Origin: Sulfurimonas sp.
GTDB lineage: Bacteria; Campylobacterota; Campylobacteria; Campylobacterales; Sulfurimonadaceae
Direction of reading: 5' to 3'
Length of the DNA stretch: 64,000 bases
Assembly (NCBI RefSeq): GCF_028694605.1
Contig: NZ_JAQVKP010000011.1
Span: forward strand, 1-64,000
A program made the position numbers and the translations under genes. Below are positions 2,179-3,517 of the stretch, in pieces (within the stretch, counting starts at the first letter, position 1; every line of letters starts with the position of its first letter). The notes beneath the pieces are model-generated. The model did no database searches. It had not been told where the DNA came from and saw only the letters and a program-made list of their open reading frames with translations.

Positions 2179-2207
2179 TTGACTTATTGATTTTAAATCA
2201 TTATACT
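2179..2207 (+). promoter_or_regulatory. strong sigma-70 promoter in the 2.2-kb intergenic region
   Basis: TTGACT (2179-2184), exactly 17 bp, then TATACT (2202-2207): one mismatch to consensus in each box. Start of transcription would be near 2214. The resulting RNA enters a long inverted repeat and a terminator within about 80 nt, so the promoter drives either a short RNA or an attenuated message for the small ORF at 2327. Such a complete -35 box is unusual in this phylum, where -35 boxes are normally poor. Confidence 0.6.
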
Positions 2208-2213
2208 TTCTTT

Positions 2214-2310
2214 GCTAATACAATTTTCTTCATGTGAACTATGGAGCGATAAATGAAGGTCGGGGGAGTAATTAACCTTCGGCCTTTTTTTTTGTCCTCC
2301 AAGTTCACAT
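2214..2310 (+). ncRNA. candidate structured small RNA / leader
   Basis: Downstream of the strong promoter, ATGTGAACT (2232-2240) and its perfect reverse complement AGTTCACAT (2302-2310) enclose an inner hairpin with a T-tract. The outer arms extend through TGGAG/CTCC with one bulge. The arrangement would give either an approximately 80-nt terminated RNA or, on read-through, a closed cruciform-like leader placed directly before a ribosome-binding site. No known riboswitch class is recognised. The assignment rests on structure alone. Confidence 0.4.
2256..2293 (+). terminator. intrinsic terminator inside the structured leader
   Basis: AAGGTCGGGGG (2256-2266) pairs with CCTTCGGCCTT (2276-2286) over 11 bp with three G-U wobbles and a 9-nt loop, followed by nine T. 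This is a textbook Rho-independent terminator on the plus strand. It sits within a larger inverted repeat (2232-2310), which suggests alternative folds and possible attenuation. Confidence 0.7.
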
Positions 2311-2326
2311 TTTGAAGGGGTTCTTT

Positions 2327-2386
2327 ATGGATAAGCTTGTATTAGCATTGCTGCTTATGTGCATCTTCGCACCGTTACTTAGGTAA
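2327..2386 (+). CDS. possible 19-residue hydrophobic peptide
   Basis: An ATG six nucleotides after a strong Shine-Dalgarno (GAAGGGG, 2314-2320) opens 19 codons reading MDKLVLALLLMCIFAPLLR and then TAA. The peptide is one hydrophobic segment with charges only near its ends, the style of single-span membrane peptides, including type I toxins of the Ibs kind (18-19 residues in the family). The RBS core AAGGGGT (2315-2321) is perfectly complementary to ACCCCTT at 2402-2408 behind the ORF, so a long-range interaction could close the start site. It could instead be a leader peptide for ispG, or not translated. No sequence homologue is claimed. Confidence 0.4.
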   Translation: MDKLVLALLLMCIFAPLLR

Positions 2387-2409
2387 CGCCAAGGGGTTTT
2401 TACCCCTTG
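2373..2409 (+). other. paired hairpins at the end of the small ORF
   Basis: CGTTAC-TTAG-GTAACG (2373-2388) covers the stop codon of the 19-codon ORF, and CAAGGGGT-TTTT-ACCCCTTG (2390-2409) follows at once. The left arm of the second hairpin repeats the RBS sequence of the small ORF, so the right arm could pair with either. Only a short T-run follows, after 11 bases, so termination here is uncertain. Confidence 0.5.
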
Positions 2410-2443
2410 CCCCCGTAAAAGCATTTTTTTATACCAATCTGGC

Positions 2444-2455: not shown

Positions 2456-3517
2456 ATGATAAAAAGATACCCAACCAAAAAAATATTTGTCGGCAGTGTT
2501 GCAGTTGGCGGTGATGCGCCCATAAGCGTGCAGTCTATGACATTTTCAAAAACTGCCGATGTGGCGAGTACGGTGGAGCAGATAAAACGCCTCCATTTTG
2601 CGGGGTGTGACATTGTGCGAGTCGCCGTTCCGGAGATGGAAGATGCACTCGCACTCAAATCCATCAAAGAGCAAATCTCACTTCCCCTTGTAGCAGATAT
2701 CCACTTTAACCACCGTCTAGCGCTTGTAGCAGCGGAAGTGGTTGACTGCATACGCATAAACCCCGGAAATATCGGTTCAAAAGAGCGTGTCAAAGAGGTA
2801 GTCAAGGCGTGTCAAGCACGCAACATCCCTATCCGTATCGGGGTTAATGCCGGAAGTTTGGAAAAAGAGTTTTTAAACAAACACGGACAGACTTCAGAGG
2901 GGATGGTAGCTTCTGCGGAGTACAACATCAAGTTTTTAGAAGATTTGGGGTTTGATAACCTCAAAATCTCTCTCAAAGCGAGTGATGTTCAAAGAACGGT
3001 TGATGCCTACAGAATGCTTCGTCCAAAAAACAGCTACCCTTTTCATCTGGGCGTTACGGAAGCGGGAACTCGTTTTCACGCAACCGTAAAAAGCGCTATC
3101 GGTCTTGGCGCACTTCTGCTTGATGGTATCGGCGATACGATGCGAGTGAGCATCACCGGAGAGCTTGAAGAGGAGATAAAAGTTGCCCGTGCCATCCTCA
3201 AAGACAGCGGTGCGGCAAAAGACGGGCTTAACATCATCTCATGCCCTACTTGCGGGCGTATTGAGGCGGATTTGGTAAGTGCGGTGGGAGAGATAGAGGA
3301 GAGAACGGCGCACATCAAAGCACCGCTCAATGTCTCTGTTATGGGGTGTGTCGTCAACGCTATCGGCGAGGCGGCGCATGCGGATGTTGCCATTGCCTAT
3401 GGTAAAGGAAAAGGACTTGTAATGGTCAAAGGCGAAGTAGTTGCAAATCTCGATGAGAGCGAACTTGTCGATAGATTTGTCAGCGAAGTCGAAAAAATGG
3501 CAAAAGAGTTGAACTAA
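2456..3517 (+). CDS. ispG: 4-hydroxy-3-methylbut-2-enyl diphosphate synthase (IspG/GcpE)
   Basis: Penultimate enzyme of the non-mevalonate (MEP) isoprenoid pathway. It reductively converts the cyclodiphosphate MEcPP to HMBPP using a [4Fe-4S] cluster. The 353 residues match the short bacterial type: an N-terminal TIM-barrel with the QSMT motif, and a C-terminal cluster domain with Cys263, Cys266 (SCPTCGR) and Cys298 (GCVVN), plus the ligand Glu305 in NAIGEA. The stop overlaps the dnaB start (TAATG), so the two are co-transcribed and probably translationally coupled. Product allylic diphosphates feed ispA further along the window. Confidence 0.97.

Follow-up and report, generated by a model that had tools for sequence, protein, structure and literature searches.

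A possible single-promoter, type I-like toxin module in Sulfurimonas with a leader antisense to its own messenger RNA

Introduction

In its usual description, a type I toxin-antitoxin system pairs a toxin gene with a separately transcribed antisense RNA. A ~240-base cassette in Sulfurimonas sp. raises the question of whether a second transcription unit is always needed. Here, the window is a stretch of 64,000 nucleotides, positions 1 to 64,000 of the forward strand of contig NZ_JAQVKP010000011.1 (assembly GCF_028694605.1). An earlier note, made from these letters alone, described within the cassette a promoter, a terminator nested in an inverted repeat, a ribosome-binding site (RBS), a 19-codon open reading frame (ORF) for a hydrophobic peptide, and two hairpins. 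The coordinates of all of these elements were verified in the sequence (Table 1). The note compared the messenger with those of type I toxins, and placed an antisense RNA on the opposite strand.

If the messenger is of this kind, where does its antitoxin come from? The comparisons described below point to the upstream part of the same strand as the most likely place of the regulatory RNA, an option absent from the earlier note.

A leader complementary to its own message

The cassette belongs to a multicopy family. Of 135 genomes in the genus, 37 have matches to a covariance model that was built from seven copies and starts downstream of the transcript 5' end. A genome has at most eight matches; about 65 matches are strong, and the weakest are marginal. 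Approximately 60 copies in the genus are intact. Because the model does not include the 5' end, its members were not chosen for any complementarity there.

All 60 intact members have a -10-like hexamer ~112-137 nt upstream of the ATG. The first ~11 nt of the transcript predicted from this site are complementary to nucleotides 11-21 of the ORF, copy by copy. Between cognate 5' ends and ORFs, the mean length of the longest perfect match is 10.2 bp, against 5.4 bp for non-cognate pairs and 6.0 bp when the ORF is recoded synonymously. Matches of at least 8 bp occur in 93% of cognate pairs, but in only 6% of non-cognate and 12% of recoded ones. In 47 of 56 copies the antisense segment begins 5-6 nt past the -10 hexamer. 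It is directed at the first bases of a 16-nt loop presented by the first hairpin of the ORF. This complementarity, which the earlier note did not contain, is the strongest feature of the module.

The next ~13 nt of the leader pair with the bases that precede the Shine-Dalgarno sequence (SD), again in a copy-specific way; the duplex energy is -13.5 kcal/mol for cognate and -4.4 kcal/mol for non-cognate partners. When leader and processed messenger are considered together, the computed gain is -20.2 kcal/mol for cognate pairs against -6.1 kcal/mol for non-cognate pairs. The same-strand leader contains a copy-specific segment complementary to the putative toxin mRNA, through which it may act in trans.

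Between the two arms of the stem that the leader forms with the pre-SD region lies a further hairpin (mean minimum free energy, MFE, -16.7 kcal/mol). It is GC-rich and stands directly before a U-run, as in intrinsic terminators and attenuators, and termination is predicted at this point. The run comprises exactly nine T in each of the 60 intact copies; copies whose ORF is lost or broken have T9, T8, T7 or T5.

Complementarity of this kind may extend beyond the main family. In another family, the 5' end of four members (L207, L208, L210 and L211) contains a stretch that could pair with the ORF start (p 0.005-0.025 against shuffles). The support is weaker here, and in L209, L212 and L214 complementarity between the 5' end and the ORF start is not significant against shuffles.

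A separate observation concerns the terminator loop (2267-2275 in the window; also in L003, L012 and others), which in most members contains a 6-nt palindrome, TAATTA, TCATGA or TTCGAA. The varying positions are too close together for intramolecular pairing, and the types switch almost freely relative to the ORF tree. The palindrome is possibly a kissing-dimer site or a recombining cassette; recombination could also explain the switching.

A constrained peptide in a folded messenger

The 227-nt RNA that begins at the predicted start in the window has an MFE of -84.8 kcal/mol (z = -7.5 against shuffles), far more structure than chance would give. What does so folded an RNA encode? An ORF is recognised in 62 of 70 loci, and in 61 of these 62 it has 19 codons. 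Over codons 4-9, entropy is 1.53 at first positions, 0.29 at second positions and 1.35 at third positions. A nearly fixed second position between free first and third positions is the mark of a constraint to hydrophobic residues, and indicates that the ORF is coding.

Outside the loop of the first hairpin, RNA structure constrains the codons too. CTT stands at codon 10 in 60 of 61 ORFs, and TGT at codon 12 mostly accompanies ACA at codon 15, despite the change from alanine to threonine that this entails. In the two ORF hairpins taken together, 97% of the cells in the comparison are paired and 30 double changes are found, more than in any of 500 shuffles (0/500) or in any of the slid controls.

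The messenger also folds upon itself end to end. Perfect pairing of at least 5 bp between the SD and a C-rich element at the 3' end, immediately past the last hairpin, occurs in 93% of 72 members, against 31% when shuffled. Because the covariance model contains some SD pairs, these members are mildly selected for the interaction. The two partners covary as types (GGGGG/CCCCC, GGGAGA/TCTCCC, GGGGA/TCCCC and AGGAGGAG/CTCCTCCT), and in other families the pairing reaches 11 bp, as in GAAGGGGGCAA/TTGCCCCCTTC. The copy in the window has a perfect G-C run of no more than 4 bp (GGGG/CCCC).

The earlier note had paired AAGGGGT (2315-2321) with ACCCCTT (2402-2408). The two are indeed complementary, but it is the C-run at 2410-2414 that is conserved as the partner of the SD. 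ACCCCTT forms the right arm of the SD-mimic hairpin (2390-2409), whose left arm, with its AAGGGG, copies the RBS as the note had said. A distant family with a 20-residue peptide (L210, L211 and L214, near 1501-1710) has a leader motif GGAGTGATTA complementary to TAATCACTCC on the 3' side of the ORF, a 5'-3' contact unlike that of the main family.

With a conserved and constrained ORF, covarying hairpins and a covarying SD:3' pairing, the description of this RNA as a type I toxin-like mRNA, closed at its start site by end-to-end pairing, is therefore well supported by comparison. The earlier note had asked for the 19-codon frame, its RBS and its hairpins in sister genomes, and for covariation. 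All are present across the family, and none of the sequence-testable observations that the note had listed against itself, such as a frame free of coding constraint, arose. The peptide itself, a hydrophobic, putative membrane peptide of 19 residues, is probably a toxin. It has no significant match in Pfam or NCBIfam, and its matches to OppC_N, conotoxin and TatA were rejected as low-complexity hydrophobic noise.

Two proposed RNAs from one promoter

From the anatomy, conservation, covariation and copy-specific complementarity of the family, one may infer that transcription terminates early in vivo, that the leader acts in trans, that the messenger is processed and that the peptide is toxic. 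The simplest reading of these sequences is that premature termination delivers an antitoxin and read-through delivers a toxin mRNA. Here, most transcripts would end at T9 to give a ~78-nt RNA in which both antisense segments are unpaired. This RNA would be the antitoxin: it would bind the bodies of toxin mRNAs at two places, the pre-SD region and the loop in the ORF, and block translation. The toxin mRNA would be the read-through product of the same promoter. It would be inert at first, with the ribosome-binding site wrapped by its own leader and the SD covered by its 3' end; only trimming at both the 5' and 3' ends would make it translatable. The peptide would then depolarise the inner membrane.

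A single-strand, single-promoter module of this type, in which the terminated leader is antitoxin and the read-through is toxin mRNA, is judged somewhat more probable than the alternatives combined. Evenly balanced is the further claim that the pair comes from one promoter and one strand, with an antitoxin antisense to the RBS region and the ORF loop, and with terminator efficiency alone fixing the ratio of the two RNAs. If terminator strength sets the ratio of antitoxin to toxin, then the invariance of T9 would be explained.

Four considerations weigh against the proposal. First, antisense pairing is no weaker between paralogs of one genome than between genomes, so there is no sign of selection for mutual orthogonality. 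Second, the same complementarities could act in cis alone. Third, the sites of transcription start and termination are predictions. Fourth, a trans-encoded antitoxin may possibly lie elsewhere.

The first two of these considerations lead to the chief rival, a lock that operates only in cis. On this view the leader has no action in trans, and the terminator serves only to reduce transcription. The mRNA that results from occasional read-through, closed by its own 5' leader and 3' end, stays inert until processing occurs or a signal opens it. The full-length RNA does form all of the pairings, and the SD within it has a computed unpaired probability of 0.16, rising to 0.47 after trimming. The primary toxin transcript is, in other words, predicted to be translationally locked, by SD:3' and leader pairings that covary. 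The absence of an orthogonality signal among the paralogs of one genome also speaks for a lock in cis. It leaves unexplained, of course, why the antisense segments stand upstream of a terminator with an invariant T-run, where most transcripts would carry them unpaired, and why the target in the ORF is offered in a hairpin loop, the usual presentation of an antisense target. The lock is a possibility to be taken seriously, though a distinctly less likely one than an antitoxin leader.

A conventional type I system, with a separate antisense antitoxin that is encoded on the minus strand or at another place and escaped the present analysis, is improbable. AapA/IsoA, from the same phylum, operates in that way (PMC6733600), and the window does contain a minus-strand extended -10-like site (TGGTATAAA, 2436-2428), from which the earlier note derived an antisense RNA over the ORF. 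That candidate was rejected. The site lies in the region upstream of ispG, which is conserved in genomes that have no module there; because this ispG-proximal sequence, common to module-less genomes, contains the site, the site is not part of the module. Within the module, no minus-strand -10 is conserved across 60 members, and nearly all members of the window's subfamily have none at all. A search of the window genome for a trans-encoded antitoxin gave two short complements to the start region, both at chance level (E 1-2) and both in coding genes.

Less probable again is a peptide that is not toxic, but rather a small membrane protein with a regulatory or structural role, tightly controlled by RNA. 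Benign examples are, of course, numerous among conserved small membrane proteins. Layered locks on translation, multicopy dispersal and patchy presence fit a harmful product better, as does the repeated loss of the ORF, by deletion or by loss of the start codon, from copies that keep the leader. As for a non-functional dispersed repeat of the MITE type, which the multicopy, intergenic and mobile character of the cassette might suggest, coding constraint and extensive covariation contradict it, and it can practically be dismissed.

Comparison with known systems

AapA/IsoA of Helicobacter shares with the module its phylum, a short membrane toxin, a multicopy habit, and an SD locked by a 5'-3' long-distance interaction together with upstream and intra-ORF structures; the interaction in AapA mRNAs is of the SD:3' kind described here (PMC6733600). 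The two differ in the antitoxin. IsoA is a cis-overlapping antisense RNA, whereas the antisense segments of the module stand upstream on the same strand, before the terminator, and no antisense promoter was found. They differ also in the peptide, which has 19 residues throughout the genus against about 30 in AapA, and which is not known to resemble AapA1.

Ibs/Sib of the Enterobacteriaceae, where Sib is transcribed from the strand opposite ibs, likewise has a 19-residue toxin with one hydrophobic segment, in multiple and partly tandem copies. The likeness to Ibs that the earlier note saw stands for size and hydrophobicity. It does not stand for family, since the window peptide gives no match to Pfam Ibs_toxin (PF13956), whose best value is E = 1.1, for one distant relative. 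Nor does Rfam find any family at gathering score within the locus. SibC recognises ibsC via two target domains (PMC8309996), and the leader of the module likewise has two antisense segments.

In canonical type I systems, an inert primary mRNA is paired with an antitoxin directed against the processed form, and the target of IstR-1 is a stand-by site that precedes the SD (PMC11228461). TisB/IstR-1 and TimP/TimR share with the module an inert primary mRNA or an alternative fold. Their antitoxin is a separate small RNA (sRNA) gene, whereas in the module attenuation of the toxin transcript itself would supply it, as the 5' part. In this respect the module would resemble attenuator-derived leader sRNAs, such as terminated leaders and riboswitches that act in trans, where a terminated leader also arises from the promoter of an mRNA. 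It differs in that its leader would be antisense to its own downstream mRNA, forming a toxin-antitoxin pair. The module thus would work like a type I system and partly resembles AapA/IsoA and Ibs/Sib, but lacks some tested defining features of each.

Searches of the open-access literature found neither this family nor a type I system in which one promoter gives rise to both RNAs. If the proposal is true, both halves of an addiction module, minimal and self-balancing, would come from attenuation of one transcript, and the design would illustrate how type I systems could arise when a sequence is simply duplicated in inverted orientation. To judge from these searches, no such family has been described before in Sulfurimonas or its relatives, many of whose genomes have several copies. 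These organisms are dominant sulfur oxidisers of marine redox zones. Because the ORF has only 19 codons, standard annotation is unlikely to call it.

Anatomy and genomic setting

In the window, the cassette sits between a gene for a TonB-type receptor (107-2146) and ispG (2456-3517).

Table 1. Features of the cassette, with positions in the window
Feature	Positions	Strand	Evidence
Promoter TTGACT-N17-TATACT	2179-2207	+	-10-like hexamer in every intact member (60/60)
Transcript 5' end TGCTAATACAA, antisense to ORF nt 11-21	2213-2223	+	11-nt perfect complement of 2337-2347
Outer stem, 5' arm (CTTCATGTGAACT + GGAG), complementary to pre-SD region	2228-2246	+	Cognate duplex energy
Intrinsic-terminator-like hairpin, then T9 (2285-2293)	2256-2293	+	Hairpin MFE, T-run count
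Outer stem, 3' arm, continuing into SD	2297-2317	+	RNA fold, cognate duplex energy
SD AAGGGG	2315-2320	+	Sequence; SD:3' comparison
19-codon ORF MDKLVLALLLMCIFAPLLR, putative membrane toxin	2327-2386	+	Length conservation, codon-position entropy
ORF hairpin 1, ATAAGC (2331-2336) / GCTTAT (2353-2358), 16-nt loop with antisense target 2337-2347	2331-2358	+	96% of cells paired, covarying
ORF hairpin 2, GTGC / GCAC	2359-2372	+	98% of cells paired; TGC..GCA covaries with TGT..ACA
Hairpin 3, GTTAC / GTAAC, across stop codon	2374-2387	+	Family comparison
SD-mimic hairpin CAAGGGG..CCCCTTG	2390-2409	+	Sequence, family comparison
3' anti-SD element CCCCC	2410-2414	+	SD:3' pairing, covarying sequence types

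Genomes that have no copy at ispG share with the window only the ispG-proximal sequence at that place. This sequence, GCATTTTTTTATACCAATCTGGCTAAAATCTCCTTATG (2421-2456), includes TGGCTAAAAT so near the ATG as to suggest an ispG promoter with a very short leader or none.

The window genome has three copies of the module (BLASTN gave two further matches, E about 1e-39), and the neighbours differ among the three. Intergenic positions account for 56 of 60 copies. Close relatives have Sulfurimonas and Sulfuricurvum as named hosts, together with metagenome-assembled genomes labelled Helicobacteraceae or Campylobacterales; divergent relatives are present in other families of the order. The cassette is thus repeated and conserved among sulfur-oxidising kin of Helicobacter and Campylobacter. 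The plasmid and phage collections gave no nucleotide match to the module. One copy does lie on an IMG/VR viral contig (L177, 10997-11971), adjoining a gene judged by eye to resemble an AntA-type antirepressor. Intergenic position, varied neighbours, a tandem pair in another genome and a copy on a viral contig would fit modules of the addiction type.

The tandem pair consists of diverged copies on a single contig (L045, 280-789). The second copy of the window genome (L009, 625-1414) adjoins two small genes that resemble, by eye, phage-type regulators (ORF6N-like and Cro-like). In L084 and L086 (1001-1117 in each), no ORF separates the SD (AAGGGG) from the mimic of it in the 3' hairpin, and the leader is retained, as if the ORF had been lost through recombination of these short repeats. 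In two distant members, L095 (~1591, GCG) and L109 (~1592, ATA), the frame is intact and the start codon is destroyed, as if these copies had been silenced by mutation.
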